A stretch of DNA of 7,312 nucleotides from Candidatus Zixiibacteriota bacterium (GTDB lineage Bacteria > SM23-81), in contig DAOVRJ010000121.1 of the NCBI GenBank assembly GCA_030628225.1, positions 1-7,312 on the forward strand, given 5' to 3'. Positions 2 to 7,312 of the stretch are shown here, one piece after another. How positions within the stretch are numbered: the first letter of the stretch is position 1; each line of letters opens with the position of its first letter. The notes beneath the pieces were generated by a model that worked only from the letters and a program-made list of their open reading frames with translations, was not told where the DNA came from and did no database searches. Position numbers and translations under genes: made by a program.

Positions 2-733
2 ACCACTATAGTTTTACAAGCTCAGAGTAAAAAGGGGTGGGAAGATATTGCTTTGCTCCACCCCAGGGAGAATTGGTCAACGCAACTGATAGACCTTTCC
101 TCCACTATGGCGCCTGTCAGCGAGGGACTTAAGCTCAGGCTATTTTGGAGGGCAGACCATAAACTGGATTATGTCGGCCTGGCCCAGCCGCATCCGTCTG
201 ATCTTATGGTACAAGAATGTCCATTAAAGTCGGCTGTCCATTCCCAGATAGGTCCGGCAGCAAAATATCTGCTGTCTGTCGATAAAGAATATGTTGAATT
301 GTTTCCTGGTGAGCAAATTGATCTTGCCTTTTCTTCCTTGAAACCGCCGCCCAACGGTTATAAGCGGGACTTCATTTTGGTATCAACTGGATATTATACC
401 GAAGACAAAACTTATGTTAATTTGCCCGAAGCTAGTGGCGACCATCAGATCCCCACAGCTTTCTCCCTTTCTCAAAACTATCCCAACCCCTTTAACTTAC
501 AAACGGAAATCGAGTATGCTTTGCCTAAGGATAGTCATGTAACTCTTCAGATTTACAATGTTCAGGGACAGTTGGTCAGGACCTTAGTGGATGAGGATCA
601 AGGGCCCGGCTACCATAAAATCCTTTGGGATGGTAGAGATTCTGTTGTTGAAGAGGTAGCTAGCGGAATTTACTTCTACCAGATAAAGGCAAGGGAGTTT
701 GTTCAGAGCAAGAGAATGGTTTTACTCAAATAG
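2..733 (+). CDS. Secreted protein, C-terminal part, with type IX secretion sorting domain (5' partial)
   Basis: The reading frame is open from base 2 without a start I would trust, so this is the 3' end of a longer gene. A TTG at 53 exists but has no convincing ribosome binding site. The last ~90 residues form a Por/type IX C-terminal sorting domain: the NYPNPFN motif (bases 476-496), then beta strands reading VTLQIYNVQGQLVRTL, a GYHKILWDGRD turn, and ASGIYFYQIKA before the basic tail ending MVLLK. In FCB bacteria this domain directs export through the outer membrane and is usually cleaved at the surface. The upstream ~150 residues (LKLRLFWRAD, then an LFPGEQIDLAF to RDFILVSTGYY stretch) resemble the C-terminal region of large secreted FG-GAP/ASPIC-UnbV-like proteins, but I hold this loosely. 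The gene is visibly AT-richer than everything after base 1200. The stop is TAG. Confidence 0.8.
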   Translation, partial: TTIVLQAQSKKGWEDIALLHPRENWSTQLIDLSSTMAPVSEGLKLRLFWRADHKLDYVGLAQPHPSDLMVQECPLKSAVHSQIGPAAKYLLSVDKEYVELFPGEQIDLAFSSLKPPPNGYKRDFILVSTGYYTEDKTYVNLPEASGDHQIPTAFSLSQNYPNPFNLQTEIEYALPKDSHVTLQIYNVQGQLVRTLVDEDQGPGYHKILWDGRDSVVEEVASGIYFYQIKAREFVQSKRMVLLK

Positions 734-1113: not shown

Positions 1114-1142
1114 TTGACATCCGGGCCGGTAGTTGCTACCAT
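1114..1142 (+). promoter_or_regulatory. Sigma-70-type promoter of the corrinoid/C1 operon
   Basis: A perfect -35 box TTGACA (1114-1119) is followed after exactly 17 bases by TACCAT (1137-1142), which matches four of six -10 consensus positions. Transcription would start near 1149, giving a leader of about 50 bases before the first gene. That leader is too short for a cobalamin riboswitch and I see none. The next -10-like sequence, CATAAA (1140-1145), would need a 20-base spacer and is less likely. Confidence 0.65.
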
Positions 1143-1200: not shown

Positions 1201-1860
1201 ATGACTGACCTGGAACAGATCACCCAGCGCCTCATCGGGGGAGACATCCCGGGTGTGCAAAAACTCGCCAAAGAGGCCCTGGATGCCGGCATCCCGGCTC
1301 AGGAAATACTGAATCAGGGACTGCTTCCGGGCATGAATGTAGTGGGCGACAGATTCAAGCAGAACCAGATCTACATCCCGGAGGTGGTCCTGTCGGCCAA
1401 GGCCATGCACGCCGGGGTGGAGCTTCTTCGCCCCCACCTGGAGGCCGGTCAGATAAAACCATCGGCCACTGTGGTCATTGGCACGGTCCAGGGGGATCTC
1501 CACGATATCGGCAAAAACCTGGTCACCATGATGCTCAAGGGCGCTGGATTCGAGGTGGTGGACCTGGGCATCGATGTGGACCCCGAGCGGTTCGCCGAGG
1601 AAGTGGCCGAGAGAAAAGCCCATATTCTGGCTCTTTCGGCCCTGCTGACCACATCCATGCCCAACATGAAAAAGACCCTGGACCTGCTCTCGGAAAGGGG
1701 TCTTCGTCAGGGAGTGATCGCCATGGTGGGCGGAGCCCCGGTCACCCAAACCTATGCCGACGAGATCGGGGCCGACGGATATGCCCAGAACGCCAGCCTG
1801 GCTGTGGACCGGGCCAGAGAATTGTTGAAATCCAGTACTTCTTCGGAATCAGGAGGTTAG
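1201..1860 (+). CDS. Corrinoid (vitamin B12-binding) methyl-carrier protein, MtbC/MtaC/MtgC-like
   Basis: This 219-residue protein carries a methyl group on the cobalt of a bound corrinoid and hands it between methyltransferases. An N-terminal helical cap domain (about residues 1-85, with the typical EILNQGLLPGMNVVGDRF stretch) precedes a Rossmann-like B12-binding domain (about 88-212). The lower-ligand motif DLHDIG is at 99-104, with H101 as the expected cobalt ligand. The companion motifs LSALLT (145-150) and VGGAPV (176-181) are intact. Length and residues are normal for cognate corrinoid proteins of methylamine, methanol or glycine-betaine systems, but these cannot be told apart by the carrier alone. 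The ATG at 1201 follows AGGGA (1186-1190) at ten bases. It is first in the operon, and the methyltransferase begins seven bases after its stop. Confidence 0.9.
   Translation: MTDLEQITQRLIGGDIPGVQKLAKEALDAGIPAQEILNQGLLPGMNVVGDRFKQNQIYIPEVVLSAKAMHAGVELLRPHLEAGQIKPSATVVIGTVQGDLHDIGKNLVTMMLKGAGFEVVDLGIDVDPERFAEEVAERKAHILALSALLTTSMPNMKKTLDLLSERGLRQGVIAMVGGAPVTQTYADEIGADGYAQNASLAVDRARELLKSSTSSESGG
1851..1856 (+). promoter_or_regulatory. Ribosome binding site of the methyltransferase gene
   Basis: A full AGGAGG lies inside the last codons of the corrinoid-protein gene, 11 bases before the ATG at 1868. It supports that start and links translation of the two genes. Confidence 0.7.
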
Positions 1861-1867
1861 CTGCCAC

Positions 1868-2665
1868 ATGCTCGTCGTGGGAGAACTGATCAACGGTAGC
1901 CGGAAGGCCATTAGCCAGGCCATAACCCAGCGGGACGCTCAGACCATCCGGAAAGTGGCCAGAGAACAGTACCAGGCCGGCGCTCAGCTGCTGGACGTCA
2001 ATGCCGGAACGAGCCCGGATCAGGAAATCGACGATCTCCTCTGGCTATTGGATGTGATCCTGGGCGAGCTGGACGTCCCTCTGTGCATCGACAGTCCCAA
2101 TGTCTATGCCATGGAAGCCGGTCTCGATCGAGCCGGGGACCGTGCTGTCATGGTCAATTCCATCACCGCCCAGAAAAGCCGCCTGGAGAGCTTCCTGCCG
2201 CTCATAGAGGCTCACCAGAGCCAGGTCGTCGCCCTGTGCATGGACGAGGGCGGGGTTCCCCAGCAAGCCCAGGAGCGTTATGAGATCGCTGCTCGTCTGG
2301 TGAAGAAGCTGGCTTCCCGGGGCATCGCGCCAGAGAAGATCTTTCTGGATCCCATCGTCTGCCCGGTGAGCGTCGACTACCATGCTGCCCAAGTGGCCCG
2401 GGAAACCCTGCGGCTGATTAAGAAACACCTCCCTCAGGCCAAAACCATCTGCGGGTTGAGTAATATCTCCTTCGGGCTCCCCAGCCGGCGATTGCTCAAC
2501 CATAACTTTCTCTCCCTCATGCTGGCTGAGGGCCTGGATGCCGCTATCATCGACCCCACCGACGATGCTCTGATGGCCAATCTCACAGCCACACAAACCC
2601 TGATGGGCCGCGACGAACACTGTCTGGGCTACATCACCGCTCACCGGGAGGGCAAACTCACCTGA
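1868..2665 (+). CDS. Methyltetrahydrofolate:corrinoid methyltransferase (AcsE/MtgA/MtvA-like, pterin-binding TIM barrel)
   Basis: This 265-residue enzyme moves a methyl group between methyltetrahydrofolate and the corrinoid protein, in either direction; partner enzymes decide which. It belongs to the pterin-binding (dihydropteroate-synthase-like) TIM-barrel family and has the normal single-domain length. The opening VGELINGSRKAI and the pterin-site motifs are intact: LDVN with D43, CIDSPN with D75, NSI with N97, FLDP with D161, and GLSNISFGLPSRR with N199. These align with D75, N96, D160 and N199 of the Moorella thermoacetica enzyme, from my memory of that family. The closing GLDAAIIDPTDD is also typical. 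The ATG at 1868 lies 7 bases after the corrinoid-protein stop, and the following gene starts 14 bases after this stop. Nothing in it looks degraded, so it is probably the functional folate-side transferase of the operon. Confidence 0.9.
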   Translation: MLVVGELINGSRKAISQAITQRDAQTIRKVAREQYQAGAQLLDVNAGTSPDQEIDDLLWLLDVILGELDVPLCIDSPNVYAMEAGLDRAGDRAVMVNSITAQKSRLESFLPLIEAHQSQVVALCMDEGGVPQQAQERYEIAARLVKKLASRGIAPEKIFLDPIVCPVSVDYHAAQVARETLRLIKKHLPQAKTICGLSNISFGLPSRRLLNHNFLSLMLAEGLDAAIIDPTDDALMANLTATQTLMGRDEHCLGYITAHREGKLT

Positions 2666-2679
2666 ATCCGGAAGGACAC

Positions 2680-3594
2680 ATGGCAACGACTCCCTTTCTA
2701 AAAAAGCTGCGGTCTCAACCGGTTCTGTTCGACGGGGCCATGGGATCTGTGCTGGCCCAAAAGGGTCTTCTGCCCGGGGATTGTCCCGAGGAGTGGAACA
2801 GATCCCACCCTCATATAGTGGCCGAAATACACCGGGCTTATGTACAGGCCGGGGCTCAGGTAATCACCACTAACAGCCTGGGAGCCAACAGAATCGGGCT
2901 GAAACGCTATGGCTTGGCCGACCAGGTGACCTTCCTGAACCAAAGTGCGGCTCAAATCGCCCGAGAGACCTGCCCCGCAGAAGTTTATGTGGCCGGGACC
3001 GTGGGTCCCACCGGAGAGTTTCTCCCACCCCTGGGCAATATGACCTACGACCGGCTGGTGGCCATCTTCCGCGAACAAATCGCCGGTCTGGTGTCAGGCG
3101 GCATAGACCTGATCTGCGTGGAGAGCATGAGCCAGCTGCACGAGGCCAGGGCGGCTGTCACCGCCGCAGGCCATTTCCCCCAGGTCCCGGTGCTGGCCAC
3201 CATGGTCTTTATAGCCGGTCCCCTGGGGTTCCGTACGACCATGGGGGTTGATCCCCAATCGGCGGTCCTGGAGCTGGCGGCCGCCGGCGCCGATGCCATC
3301 GGCTGCAGTTGCGGTCAACTCACCCTCCGGCAGATGACCAAGCTGATGGGCGAGCTGAGGACCCTGACCGAGCTGCCGCTCATCGCCCAGCCTGATGCCG
3401 GCAAAGCCAAGCTGGCCAGTGGGAACACCGTCTACTCGCGCACACCCAAACAATTGGCCGAATGGGCGGATCAGATCCTTCAAGAGGGGGCCACCATCGT
3501 CGGCGGATCATGGGGAACCACCCCGGCACACATCGCCGCCATGGCCACGACCTTCGCCCCGACCAAGAAAAAAATGGGGAAGGGACAATCGTGA
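2680..3594 (+). CDS. Homocysteine S-methyltransferase-family protein lacking the Cys-Cys zinc pair
   Basis: This 304-residue barrel resembles the N-terminal (homocysteine) module of MetH and betaine-homocysteine methyltransferase. Family motifs are FDGAMGS (17-23), CPEEWN (35-40), ITTNSLGANR (62-71), AGTVGPTGEFLPPLG (105-119), an ICVESM barrel strand (145-150) and GCSCGQ (208-213). True homocysteine methyltransferases hold zinc with one Cys after the fifth strand (here C211, retained) and a Cys-Cys pair in a GGCCGT loop. Here that loop reads GGSWGTTPAHI (275-285), so both Cys are replaced by S277 and W278. Zinc-thiolate chemistry on homocysteine is therefore unlikely. By position it may be the substrate-side partner of the corrinoid protein, acting on another methyl donor or acceptor; that is inference. 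The ATG at 2680 follows GGAAGGA. The TGA stop overlaps the next gene's GTG start. Confidence 0.8.
   Translation: MATTPFLKKLRSQPVLFDGAMGSVLAQKGLLPGDCPEEWNRSHPHIVAEIHRAYVQAGAQVITTNSLGANRIGLKRYGLADQVTFLNQSAAQIARETCPAEVYVAGTVGPTGEFLPPLGNMTYDRLVAIFREQIAGLVSGGIDLICVESMSQLHEARAAVTAAGHFPQVPVLATMVFIAGPLGFRTTMGVDPQSAVLELAAAGADAIGCSCGQLTLRQMTKLMGELRTLTELPLIAQPDAGKAKLASGNTVYSRTPKQLAEWADQILQEGATIVGGSWGTTPAHIAAMATTFAPTKKKMGKGQS
3581..3594 (+). promoter_or_regulatory. Ribosome binding site and overlapping GTGA stop/start
   Basis: AGGGA at 3581-3585 lies five bases before GTG at 3591. That GTG shares bases with the TGA stop (3592-3594) of the preceding gene. The arrangement fixes the start of the aldolase-like gene despite the frame staying open further upstream, and implies translational coupling. 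Confidence 0.65.
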
Positions 3595-4277
3595 GAGATC
3601 AGGATATCAGGACCGAGATGATCCGGATCTGTCACTGGTTGGCCAGACAGACCTTTGTGGTTGCCGACGACGGGGCCCTCAGCGCGCGAATCTCCCGCGA
3701 TCAAATTCTGATCACGCCCCGGGGCAAGAACCTGGGCTGGGTTACCTGCCAGCAACTGGTCCTGCTGAACATGGACGGACAGCAGGAAAAGGGGAAGCCG
3801 GAACCTTCCCCGGCCTATCAGCTTCACCTGGCCGCTTACCGTCACAGGGATAAAATCCAGGCTGTTATCCACGCCCAGCCCCCCACTGCCACCGCCTTCG
3901 CCGTGGCCGGTATCCCTTTGGTCCAGCCTGTCCTTCCGGAAACGGTTCTCACCCTGGGCTCGGTGCCGGTGACAGAATACGCCACCCCGTACACCGAAGA
4001 GGCTGCCCGGGCCATCGGCGACCTGATCGGGGAACACGACGCCCTGCTGCTCAGAAACCGCGGCCTGCTGGCCGTGGGCTGCAACCTCAGCGAAGCCCTG
4101 CAGAAATTGGAGCGGGTAGAACAACTGGCCCGCGTCCTTCTGAAGGCCAAATCTCTGGATCATGTCGACCTTCTCACGGGCACCCAGGTGAAGAAATTGA
4201 TGTCCCTTCGGAAAAGGATGAATCTGGGGGGAAAGAACCCGTGGTCCCCAGCCGACCAGGAGAAAAATGATGGCTGA
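3591..4277 (+). CDS. Class II aldolase/adducin-family protein with most catalytic residues missing
   Basis: This 228-residue protein, read from GTG 3591, has the full length and fold pattern of fuculose-phosphate-aldolase-like (AraD/FucA) enzymes, which cleave sugar phosphates with a zinc ion. The scaffold is well preserved: ILITPRGKNLGW (39-50), LHLAAYRHRDKIQAVIHA (78-95), TAFAVAGIPL (101-110), TPYT (132-135), LLLRNRGLLAVG (152-163). The working residues are not. The phosphate loop GN(I/L)S reads GALS (28-31). The PSSE motif holding the catalytic Glu reads PSPA (72-75). The HxH zinc pair reads HAQ (94-96). The third zinc His in NHG reads NRG (R157). Only H94 remains. The frame is intact with no stops, so this looks like a maintained pseudoenzyme, a regulatory or structural subunit, or a protein with new chemistry. 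Its end overlaps the next gene by 11 bases. Confidence 0.8.
   Translation: MRDQDIRTEMIRICHWLARQTFVVADDGALSARISRDQILITPRGKNLGWVTCQQLVLLNMDGQQEKGKPEPSPAYQLHLAAYRHRDKIQAVIHAQPPTATAFAVAGIPLVQPVLPETVLTLGSVPVTEYATPYTEEAARAIGDLIGEHDALLLRNRGLLAVGCNLSEALQKLERVEQLARVLLKAKSLDHVDLLTGTQVKKLMSLRKRMNLGGKNPWSPADQEKNDG
4258..4262 (+). promoter_or_regulatory. Ribosome binding site of the thymidylate-synthase-like gene
   Basis: AGGAG sits four bases before the ATG at 4267 and seven before a second in-frame ATG at 4270. The second has the more usual spacing, so the true start may be one codon later than annotated. Confidence 0.6.
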
Positions 4278-5085
4278 GGGACAAATCCCCCTTCTCTCTG
4301 TTCGGGCCAGAACTCTTCCCCTGGCCTGGGAAAAATCGGTGCTGCTCTGTTGGAATAAGGGCGCCGCGGTGCGTACCGAATACGACCGGCCCAAGGATCC
4401 GCCCAGCCGCGACTGCACCATGGTCATCACCGTAACTGCTCCCCTGGCCGAGCCCAAGATTCACCGCGCATTCCCCGGCAGCCTGGAGGATTTGGAGATC
4501 TACCGGCTGGAGGTGGTCACGGGCATCCACGACCATTGGATCTCTCCCCGGGAGGGGAAATGGACCTACACCTATCACCAGAGACTGTTTAACTACAGCG
4601 CCGATGACCAGCCCGTCGACCAGATCGCTTACCTGGTGGAAAAACTCTCCCAGACTCCCTATTCCCGCCGGGCTCAGGCCATCACATGGAACCCCAAGAC
4701 CGATCCCCCCACCGAGGATCCCCCCTGTCTGCAGCGGATCTGGTGCCGTTTGCTCCCCGGCCGCTCCGGCCCTGTGCTGAACATGAACGCCCACTGGCGA
4801 TCCCGGGATGCCTACAAGGCAGCTTTCATGAACATGTTCGCCCTGACGGATCTGCAGCGACAGATTGCTGAGGCAATATCGGCTCGCCTGGGCCAAAAAG
4901 TCAGGGTGGGCCGATATGTGGACATCAGCGATAGCTTTCACATCTACGGCTCCTATGCCCAGGAGTTCCAGCAGTTCCTGCGCACCACCCAGGAGAGGAC
5001 CTTCGCTGAACGAGTGTGGAACTCCTCCTTCGCCGAGCCATTCTTCCAGGAGGCTCGTCAGAGGGTCGCCGACGAAAGACCCTGA
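4267..5085 (+). CDS. Thymidylate-synthase-family protein (divergent)
   Basis: This 272-residue protein matches thymidylate synthase (ThyA fold) across its second half. The classical enzyme methylates dUMP with methylenetetrahydrofolate. Visible motifs are WTYTYHQRLFNY (99-110), DQI (118-120), SRRAQAITWNP (133-143; the Arg pair that holds the phosphate), DPPC (151-154, nucleophile C154), RSRD (178-181), N189, and SDSFHIY (221-227) with the nucleotide-ribose His and Tyr. The residue after the nucleophile is Leu (L155), where ordinary ThyA has His. The N-terminal ~100 residues lack a recognisable phosphate-loop Arg motif and the usual LLWFL region. It resembles atypical archaeal-type thymidylate synthases more than E. 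coli ThyA. It may make dTMP or transfer a C1 unit to another pyrimidine-like substrate. Its start overlaps the aldolase-like gene. A folate-using enzyme fits beside the methyl-folate transferase. Confidence 0.75.
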   Translation: MMAEGQIPLLSVRARTLPLAWEKSVLLCWNKGAAVRTEYDRPKDPPSRDCTMVITVTAPLAEPKIHRAFPGSLEDLEIYRLEVVTGIHDHWISPREGKWTYTYHQRLFNYSADDQPVDQIAYLVEKLSQTPYSRRAQAITWNPKTDPPTEDPPCLQRIWCRLLPGRSGPVLNMNAHWRSRDAYKAAFMNMFALTDLQRQIAEAISARLGQKVRVGRYVDISDSFHIYGSYAQEFQQFLRTTQERTFAERVWNSSFAEPFFQEARQRVADERP

Positions 5086-5099
5086 GGCTGGAAATTCCC

Positions 5100-6464
5100 T
5101 TGATCGACAGAGAATTACAAAAGCAACTCCAGGAAATACTTGAAACAGAGAAACTTCTGGTTGCCCCCCAGACCCTGTCTTCCTTCTCCCGGGATGCTTC
5201 CGGCATCTGCTCCCCACCATCCCTTCTCCTCCAGCCGCAAACCACCACACAGATCGCCAGGATCGTGAGCCTGGCCCACAAACACCATTTCCCCCTGACC
5301 ATCCGTGGCGGAGACACGGCACCTTCCGGCGGCGCGATGGCCACCAGGGGCGGCATCCTGCTCAGTCTGAGCAAAATGAGCCGGGTCACGGAGATCTCCT
5401 CCCGGAACATGATGGTAGTGGTTCAGCCGGGTGTGATCACTGCCCAGATCAACGCCCAGCTAAAACCCCATGGCCTCTTCTACCCCATAGATCCTGCCAG
5501 CCAGGATCTATGCACCATCGGCGGAAACGTGGCCACCAGGGCTCATGGACTGCACGGAATAAAATACGGCACTATCGACAATTACCTGCTGGGCCTGGAG
5601 GCTGTTGTGCCCCCTGGAGAGATCATCCGCTGCGGCGCCAAAACTATCAAATGCGCCACAGGATACCGTCTCACAGACCTGCTGGCCGGCTCTCGCGGAC
5701 AGATCGGAATCATCACCGAGATCATCCTCAAACTTCTGCCCAGGCCCCAGGCTCAGGCTTCCCTGATGGCCACCTTCGGCGGCATGGGTCAGGCTTGCCG
5801 GGTTAAAGAGGTGCTGCACAAAAAGGGTATTCGCCCCTCCCGGATGGAATTGATGGACCACCGGTCAGCCCACAGCGGGCTGGTAGATCTAAATCTGTCC
5901 CTCTCCTCCGGCCAGGCTTTGCTGCTGGTAGAGCTGGACGGGGAGGAATCCATGGTGCAGAAGGATGCGCAGATGACCGGCAAGCTTTTGGTTGAGCAGG
6001 GCGGAGAGGGGGTACGTCTGGCTCAAGACGAGAGGGAAAGCGACCGGTGGTGGCAAGCCCGGGGCACACTGCTCTCCCATCTAACAGAGCAAGAAGATGC
6101 ATTCCTCTTGCTGACCACCATCATCCCGGGAGCAAAAGCGACTCGCTTTTTTCAGAAGGTCGCCGAGGCCTCTCCAAGAAAAGGCGCAGATCTGGCTATT
6201 TTCGGCCACCTGGGAGAGGGGCGCTGGCACTCGGTGATCTCCGCCAGGAAACACGGGACAGCGGCGAAACGGGCTCTTCCAAAACTGGCGGAAGCCATTC
6301 ATAAAATCGCCGTCTCTTTGGGCGGCAGAAACCGGCCACTTTACGCCGTCGGGTTCGCTGCCGGCGCATTCCCCCCACCCCCGGGGGATGCCGGAGCGGA
6401 AATGCTATACAGGACACTGAAGGCCAGCTTCGACCCCAGGGGCATCCTCCAGCCCATGGAGTGA
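5100..6464 (+). CDS. GlcD-like FAD-binding oxidase/dehydrogenase with altered C-terminal active site
   Basis: This is a 454-residue flavoprotein of the FAD-linked oxidase family (glycolate oxidase GlcD, D-lactate and D-2-hydroxyglutarate dehydrogenases). I chose TTG 5100 because the protein then begins MIDRELQKQLQEIL, the usual GlcD-type start, 14 bases after the preceding stop. An ATG at 5016 would add 28 residues inside the upstream gene. The PCMH-type FAD domain is clear: RGGDTAPSGGA (69-79), VVVQPGV (106-112), PIDPASQDLCTIGGNVA (129-145), KYGTIDNYLLGLEAVVP (155-171), and GSRGQIGIITE (197-207), where the family usually has GSEGTLGIITE. In the C-terminal domain the two His of GHxGDGNxH survive (GHLGEGRWH, 369-377), but the GG-EHG motif carrying a metal-binding Glu and catalytic His reads GGRNRPLY (408-415). 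The substrate is probably not a simple 2-hydroxyacid. No iron-sulfur partner subunit follows. Confidence 0.8.
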   Translation: MIDRELQKQLQEILETEKLLVAPQTLSSFSRDASGICSPPSLLLQPQTTTQIARIVSLAHKHHFPLTIRGGDTAPSGGAMATRGGILLSLSKMSRVTEISSRNMMVVVQPGVITAQINAQLKPHGLFYPIDPASQDLCTIGGNVATRAHGLHGIKYGTIDNYLLGLEAVVPPGEIIRCGAKTIKCATGYRLTDLLAGSRGQIGIITEIILKLLPRPQAQASLMATFGGMGQACRVKEVLHKKGIRPSRMELMDHRSAHSGLVDLNLSLSSGQALLLVELDGEESMVQKDAQMTGKLLVEQGGEGVRLAQDERESDRWWQARGTLLSHLTEQEDAFLLLTTIIPGAKATRFFQKVAEASPRKGADLAIFGHLGEGRWHSVISARKHGTAAKRALPKLAEAIHKIAVSLGGRNRPLYAVGFAAGAFPPPPGDAGAEMLYRTLKASFDPRGILQPME

Positions 6465-6542: not shown

Positions 6543-7133
6543 ATGCCCAACCCATCCGCTGAACAAACAGAAGCTCTCCAGACAACCGATGCCCAGCTGA
6601 TTCGAGAGCTCAAGGGCGGTCGAAAAAAATCTTTTGACCAGCTGGTCCTTCGCCACCAGCGGAGGATATACGCCATCACCTTTCGGATGACCGCCAACCA
6701 TCATGACGCCGACGACCTTGCTCAGGAGACTTTTCTGGCCGCCTATCGCGCCTTAGACCGGTTTGATGAGAGACAAAGCTTCGCAGCATACATCTCCCGG
6801 ATCGCCATCAATCTGTCCATCAACCACCTGCGCAGGAAAAAACGGTGGCTGAAGATCTGGACTCAGGGGAGAAGAGAGGTGGGAAAAGCTCTCCTGGGCG
6901 CAAAGGACCCGGGCCCTCAGAAGAACCTGGAGCAGAAAGAGCTGCTTCACAGGCTAAACCAGGCCATGGAAACCCTGCCAGCTCATCAAAAGGCCGTTTT
7001 GGTTCTTAAAGTGTATCAGGAAATGAGCTATGAAGAAATCGCCATGACATTAAAAATCTCCACGGGCACAGTGATGTCGCGCTTGCATCGCGCCAGAAGC
7101 CGCCTGCACGTCCAGATCAAAGATCTCATCTGA
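6543..7133 (+). CDS. ECF-subfamily RNA polymerase sigma factor (RpoE/SigW-like)
   Basis: This 196-residue protein directs RNA polymerase to a specific set of promoters. Region 2 spans about residues 27-98, with FDQLVLRHQRRIYAITFRMT (31-50) and the core-binding DADDLAQETF (55-64), ending in INHLRRKKR (93-101). Region 4 spans about 135-190, with LPAHQKAVLVLKV (145-157) and the helix-turn-helix MSYEEIAMTLKISTGTVMSR (161-180). No region 3 or extra C-terminal domain is present, and the length is typical. The ATG at 6543 follows GGAG (6535-6538) at four bases. The next gene is a zinc-finger anti-sigma factor, the usual partner, which would hold it inactive until a signal arrives. Whether it controls the C1 operon cannot be seen; the operon's own promoter looks like a housekeeping one. 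Confidence 0.92.
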   Translation: MPNPSAEQTEALQTTDAQLIRELKGGRKKSFDQLVLRHQRRIYAITFRMTANHHDADDLAQETFLAAYRALDRFDERQSFAAYISRIAINLSINHLRRKKRWLKIWTQGRREVGKALLGAKDPGPQKNLEQKELLHRLNQAMETLPAHQKAVLVLKVYQEMSYEEIAMTLKISTGTVMSRLHRARSRLHVQIKDLI

Positions 7134-7152: not shown

Positions 7153-7312
7153 ATGCGTTGCCGAAAGGTCAGAAAACTGCTTGGTCCGCTCATCGACAAA
7201 GAGCTGTCCGAGAAACAGCGCCAAGAGGTGGCCGCCCATCTAGAGGGATGTTCCGGCTGCCGGGCTGAGTTGGAGTCTCTGGGCAAAGCCGAAGCCCTGA
7301 GCCGGCAATTGG
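7153..7312 (+). CDS. Zinc-finger anti-sigma factor, N-terminal part (3' partial)
   Basis: The gene begins at ATG 7153, seven bases after the strong site AAGAGGTGA (7138-7146) and 19 bases after the sigma factor stop. It runs off the window after 53 codons. The visible part is a zf-HC2/ZAS domain with C3, H29, C33 and C36 in the classical Cys-x25-His-x3-Cys-x2-Cys spacing; the last three lie in HLEGCSGC. Such domains bind zinc and clamp the cognate sigma factor, and in some members oxidation or a membrane-linked signal releases it. The rest of the protein, including any membrane segment or sensor domain, lies outside, so its signal is unknown. Confidence 0.85.
   Translation, partial: MRCRKVRKLLGPLIDKELSEKQRQEVAAHLEGCSGCRAELESLGKAEALSRQL

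Follow-up and report, generated by a model that had tools for sequence, protein, structure and literature searches.

The stretch of DNA analysed here (7,312 bp, hereafter the window) corresponds to contig C24 in a draft genome of a Candidatus Zixiibacteriota bacterium (GCA_030628225.1, contig DAOVRJ010000121.1; 2.34 Mb in 306 contigs, 92% complete), and an open reading frame list together with Pfam searches places six genes on one strand at positions 1201–6464. Their Pfam order is B12-binding_2 plus B12-binding, Pterin_bind, S-methyl_trans, Aldolase_II, Thymidylat_synt, and FAD_binding_4 plus FAD-oxidase_C. The features of this operon are as follows, with the method in parentheses:

1201..1860, + strand: corrinoid-binding protein with a B12-binding_2 cap and a B12-binding domain, MtgC/MtbC type, DLHDIG motif intact (Pfam PF02607 and PF02310, alignment).
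1868..2665, + strand: methyl-tetrahydrofolate:corrinoid methyltransferase, MeTr/MtgD type (Pfam PF00809; PRK07535, 317.9 bits, cut-off 259).
2680..3594, + strand: homocysteine S-methyltransferase relative (hcy), last two zinc Cys residues changed to Ser-Trp at codons 3508–3513 (Pfam, alignment).
3591..4277, + strand: class II aldolase/adducin-type pseudoenzyme with a GTG start that overlaps the hcy stop (Pfam, alignment).
4267..5085, + strand: archaeal-type thymidylate synthase (TS), active-site residues intact (Pfam, NCBIfam, structure matches, alignment).
5100..6464, + strand: GlcD-type flavin adenine dinucleotide (FAD) protein, TTG start (Pfam, alignment).
1114..1142, + strand: sigma-70-like promoter, TTGACA-17-TACCAT with an extended -10, upstream of the operon (pattern scan).

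Related loci were collected by a search with the TS protein, which gave 174 confirmed stretches from many bacterial phyla and some archaea, of which 80 were kept; relatives for the residue alignments came from a search of 386 genomes. Absences reported below rest mostly on draft genomes, and the in-house profiles used are small.

A preliminary description of this DNA held that the corrinoid protein and the methyl-folate transferase keep all family residues, and alignment agrees, since motifs and active-site residues are retained in both. The draft genome encodes two corrinoid proteins and two pterin-binding proteins, the latter being dihydropteroate synthase (FolP) and the operon methyltransferase; neither a fused MetH nor a MetE was found in it. 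Its one methylenetetrahydrofolate reductase (MTHFR) gene is adjoined by a gene for a 222-residue cysteine-rich protein that is without an NCBIfam match and that we read as MetV. Contig C154 of the same genome encodes a homocysteine methyltransferase with GSNCG and GGCCGT motifs and all three zinc Cys residues intact, as well as a Met_synt_B12 (PF02965 type) activation protein and MttB. The best reading of the two operon proteins is that they supply the methyl-donating half of a cobalamin-dependent methionine synthase of the split kind, and we infer that methyl groups flow from the window methyltransferase to the C154 acceptor. Methyl-tetrahydrofolate, made by MetF/MetV from genes at a different place in the genome, would be the methyl source from which the methyltransferase charges the corrinoid protein, and the intact C154 enzyme would then take the methyl group to form methionine; the Met_synt_B12-type protein would carry out reactivation, and the MttB protein may be a second methyl source. 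Locus L158, from another genome, holds a corrinoid protein, an MttB-like protein, a methyltransferase and an intact homocysteine methyltransferase all together, and at locus L162 a similar set is accompanied by an activase of the RACo type, a folD-like gene and an activation protein; such sets correspond to the split MetH of Phaeobacter and Ruegeria. In the sister family f2 MetE-type genes are present, and a methyltransferase of the operon type was not found. In the window genome and its family relative alike, the gene of the second corrinoid protein adjoins one for a URO-D family protein (L231:993-2900, L232:2872-4713).

The fifth gene is the sole PF00303 gene of the window genome (47.2 bits, cut-off 24.3), and the solved structures nearest to its product are canonical thymidylate synthases. 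Among 86 members of its family (hereafter TS-like proteins), Cys154, Arg134, Arg135, Arg178, Asp181, Asn189 and His225 are invariant and Tyr227 is present in 85; also retained are the residues at the positions that align with Trp80 and Asp169, which contact the pterin. A dead or non-TS enzyme was considered for the TS-like protein and rejected, as the active-site residues are kept. Because the active site is intact and other thymidylate synthases were not found, we infer that this protein makes thymidine monophosphate (dTMP) and is the only recognisable thymidylate synthase of the cell.

The remaining three genes had been described as relatives that lost their defining residues, and comparison with 30 (hcy), 28 (aldolase) and 24 (GlcD) relatives bears this out. 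In hcy, the pair Cys277-Cys278 reads Ser-Trp, where the first Cys is present in 30/30 relatives and the second in 29/30, so that one of the three zinc-binding Cys residues is kept; N210S, N239D and T149S are further changes at positions that are each invariant in the 30 relatives. A sequencing error behind Ser-Trp is unlikely, since three base changes over two adjacent codons would be needed in a frame that is otherwise clean. The aldolase relative has a full-length class II aldolase/adducin domain (PF00596, 136.9 bits), but unlike the class II aldolases it carries N29A, E75A, H96Q and H157R, each at a position invariant in 28/28 relatives, and has thereby lost the catalytic Glu and the second and third metal His residues. 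The GlcD relative resembles the GlcD/FAD-linked oxidases in that PF01565 (136.5 bits, the FAD-binding PCMH domain) and PF02913 both score above cut-off; it differs from them in lacking the EHG metal motif (24/24 in relatives), in reading GHLGEGRWH for the GHxGDGNxH motif and in an altered ED motif.

Among the 80 TS-like loci the operon recurs once, without hcy, at L016 of candidate division Zixibacteria bacterium SM23_81, a genome of the same family (its contig coordinates are the same as those of genome G001), and the search of 386 genomes showed the aldolase and GlcD proteins to have close relatives in that family only. Wide conservation of the six-gene order is thus rejected: the recurrence of the gene order and substitutions in distant genomes that the preliminary description had proposed to look for did not appear, and outside the family the genes are rarely neighbours, which that description had itself named as a ground for refutation. 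The gene overlaps that it noted hold up, and that between the aldolase relative and TS is present in both genomes. The aldolase and GlcD site losses are common to the two genomes (catalytic Glu and metal ligands in the one protein; EHG, GDGN and ED residues in the other), and individual positions have diverged since: H94 of the aldolase relative is still His in the window and Gln in its L016 orthologue, which has lost all three metal His residues, and the EHG positions, with the motif absent in both operons, differ as well. Ratios of dN/dS (NG86) between the window and L016, which are approximate because dS is near 1, are about 0.13 for the corrinoid protein, 0.25 for the methyltransferase, 0.28 for the aldolase relative, 0.12 for TS and 0.26 for the GlcD relative. 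These values (0.12–0.28 for the five shared genes) are well below 1, which makes decay of the shared genes unlikely. Sites lost in both genomes under purifying selection argue that the aldolase and GlcD relatives are real pseudoenzymes; both are maintained by selection and, judged from sequence, probably do not catalyse the reaction of their family.

The case of hcy is different. It is missing from the L016 operon, where a gap of about 60 bases separates the methyltransferase and aldolase-relative genes, and dS between hcy and its paralogues is saturated, so no usable dN/dS was obtained. Since the sister operon lacks hcy and the compared relatives keep the Cys residues, Ser-Trp is private to the window; a syntenic orthologue that shares it, which the preliminary description had anticipated, does not exist in the one orthologous operon. 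Window hcy would be a paralogue without its zinc site, confined to a single genome and either repurposed or being lost. The case against decay that was first made for all three genes is supported for the aldolase and GlcD relatives, the two that can be compared and that are under purifying selection.

These observations bear on two alternative views of the operon. All three altered genes might have arisen by duplication of ordinary metabolic genes, have been caught in the operon and now evolve with constraint relaxed, functionally unconnected with methyl transfer and TS. The sister operon without hcy and the several invariant residues lost in window hcy are what such a view expects, as is the departure of the window GlcD relative from the FAD-loop consensus (GGDTAPSGGA), from which the sister protein departs differently. 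However, the frames are full-length and the altered residues common in both genera, the ratios of the aldolase and GlcD relatives lie near that of the intact methyltransferase, and both genomes retain the aldolase relative/TS overlap; we consider this explanation unlikely. At the other extreme, all six proteins could have co-evolved into a single undescribed pathway or complex that depends on folate and corrinoid, close to what was first proposed. Gene overlaps, residue losses common to two of the three relatives, purifying selection and an ECF sigma gene 3' of the operon in both genomes are in its favour, but the second operon has no hcy gene, the operon was found in one family only despite 174 confirmed TS-like stretches, and a split MetH accounts for the methyl-transfer genes, so that this explanation appears quite improbable. 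The six genes and the residue losses of the preliminary description are thus upheld. No support was obtained for an hcy change common to orthologues, for operons in distant genomes, or for the losses in three genes having run in parallel within a single co-evolved unit. An undescribed one-carbon pathway with an unknown substrate is likewise unsupported as stated and is unneeded, because a split methionine synthase accommodates the methyl-transfer genes and TS is predicted to make dTMP.

The usual ThyA partner is dihydrofolate reductase (DHFR). We searched 40 genome entries, 38 of which carry a TS-like gene, the other two (G002 and G003) being a TS-less sister family; G001 and G098 have identical contig coordinates and are probably one genome, and G098 was left out of the DHFR search. 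PF00303 was detected in 36/40 entries (the Pfam search missed the TS-like genes of G058 and G118). ThyX was found in 16/40, including both sister-family genomes, and not in the window genome or G001. DHFR (PF00186) was found in 0/39 genomes, 37 of them with a TS-like gene, and in 9 of 14 control genomes. More than half of the checked TS-carrying genomes are thus without ThyX as well, and none has a recognisable DHFR. In each of the phylum's four genomes (L225:1072-2286, L224, L226, L227) FolP is extended at its N-terminus by about 130 residues; a DHFR2-type fusion with FolP has been described for Helicobacter (PMC1971073), and by analogy the extension might be a putative DHFR2-type domain. ThyX appears as two matches in one frame of about 500 residues in five genomes of Aminicenantes/Acidobacteriota that also have a TS-like gene (G102, G104, G105, G106 and G112).

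If dihydrofolate is made in such a DHFR-less cell, the GlcD-type FAD protein could have been re-purposed as the reductase that recycles it. Its gene directly follows TS in both genomes, and its FAD domain is kept and its hydroxy-acid metal site lost where DHFR was not found; yet in the other TS-like loci examined no GlcD-type gene lies beside TS, and the FolP extension might itself be a DHFR2-type domain. We find this idea hardly credible, and scarcely more so the one that follows.

Besides the window family, TS-like genes adjoin corrinoid genes in at least two further lineages, which makes at least three in all. In a euryarchaeon a corrinoid protein gene overlaps the TS-like gene (L067:7306-8990), and in Nitrososphaeria/Brockarchaeota (L071, L073, L077 and L090) the TS-like gene lies near a RACE-type activase and MtaB-MtaC; there RACE and TS converge on MtaB-MtaC, and all four genomes also have ThyX. 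The complete Omnitrophota chromosome G109 (loci L244-L300) encodes a methyltransferase and a corrinoid protein (189983-190621, 787538-788371) besides TS, and a homocysteine acceptor or homocysteine methyltransferase domain was not found on it, with 64 kb of the chromosome masked; the MetE check there is weak, since the profile is small and one of its members is really a homocysteine-methyltransferase frame. Omnitrophota neighbourhoods were also considered as one-carbon clusters and rejected, as HIT and HD-domain proteins are among the conserved neighbours there, together with what sequence inspection shows to be an ATPase and a phosphodiesterase. These juxtapositions and the 0/39 count for DHFR could mean that in the DHFR-free TS clade the methyl group comes from a corrinoid protein methylated by methyl-folate, and not from methylene-tetrahydrofolate, so that no dihydrofolate is made; the window operon would then unite donor enzyme, carrier and acceptor. 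A limited literature search gave no published TS–corrinoid protein link in titles or abstracts. Several observations speak against such chemistry, which we hold to be very improbable: a near-minimal Paceibacterota genome (659 kb, all 15 contigs, with about 1.6 kb at two contig ends unfetched) has a TS-like gene and no corrinoid protein, methyltransferase or FolP that we could find; the neighbours at most TS-like loci are unrelated to corrinoids; the positions aligned with the pterin-contacting residues are kept; and two methanogen control genomes likewise have a PF00303 TS without DHFR.

We favour, at a probability of roughly 60%, a lineage-specific folate one-carbon operon that joins the donor half of a split MetH, the apparently sole TS of the cell and retained altered relatives, and most of the operon fits known biochemistry. 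In this arrangement the TS-like protein would make dTMP, and the aldolase and GlcD relatives would be kept as non-catalytic or re-purposed partners, the former probably as a regulator or scaffold whose translation is coupled to that of TS and the latter probably as an FAD protein with a new substrate; this is the weakest step. Certain points weigh against the lineage-specific operon: the window TS (126.6 bits) falls under the TIGR03283 cut-off of 174.55, no DHFR was found to serve TS, the dN/dS ratios are approximate, the role of both pseudoenzymes is a guess, and either of the two corrinoid proteins of the genome could serve methionine synthase. In addition, missing DHFR, ThyX and MetE are not proof, because the window genome is a 92% complete draft. 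If this interpretation is true, the operon is a new gene arrangement of a split methionine synthase, and its TS belongs to a large, mostly uncultured clade with no recognisable DHFR in the genomes checked, which raises the question of whether the TS-like enzyme makes dihydrofolate and what then reduces it. Both pseudoenzymes, kept by selection, might then act as regulatory or structural factors around thymidylate synthase.

Outside the six genes, the promoter scan gave 2 sites where 1.7 are expected by chance, and since this count is no higher than chance only the position of the 1114..1142 site is suggestive. An Rfam search of the window matched no RNA element. The C-terminal portion of a secreted protein is encoded at window positions 2–733 and includes FlgD-like and type IX secretion sorting domains. 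An extracytoplasmic function (ECF) sigma factor gene lies 3' of the operon at 6543–7133, and beside it (7153–7312) is the start of a gene that resembles a zinc-finger anti-sigma factor; both also follow the operon at L016 (L016:10271-11996).

How does the operon compare with known systems? The best NCBIfam match of the window TS is the methanogen TS (TIGR03283), which is matched by all 48 TS-like members scanned, and TS without a recognisable DHFR is a trait that the two methanogen control genomes share; unlike the methanogen enzymes, the TS-like clade is found in many bacterial phyla, and its N-terminal part has no PF00303 match. A split methionine synthase has been demonstrated genetically in Phaeobacter inhibens (PGA1_c13370-c13350-c16040; PMC5764234), and in Ruegeria the MtgBCDE system acts as a glycine betaine demethylase and split methionine synthase (PMC12478193). 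As in these bacteria, the methyl-folate, corrinoid and homocysteine functions of the window genome are on separate proteins with no fused MetH, the reactivation protein is separate, and an MttB-type protein is present in the same genome. The differences are in gene arrangement: in the window genome a separate locus carries the genes for the acceptor, the PF02965-type reactivation protein and MttB, and the methyl-folate and corrinoid genes are in one operon together with a thymidylate synthase gene and the genes of two pseudoenzymes.

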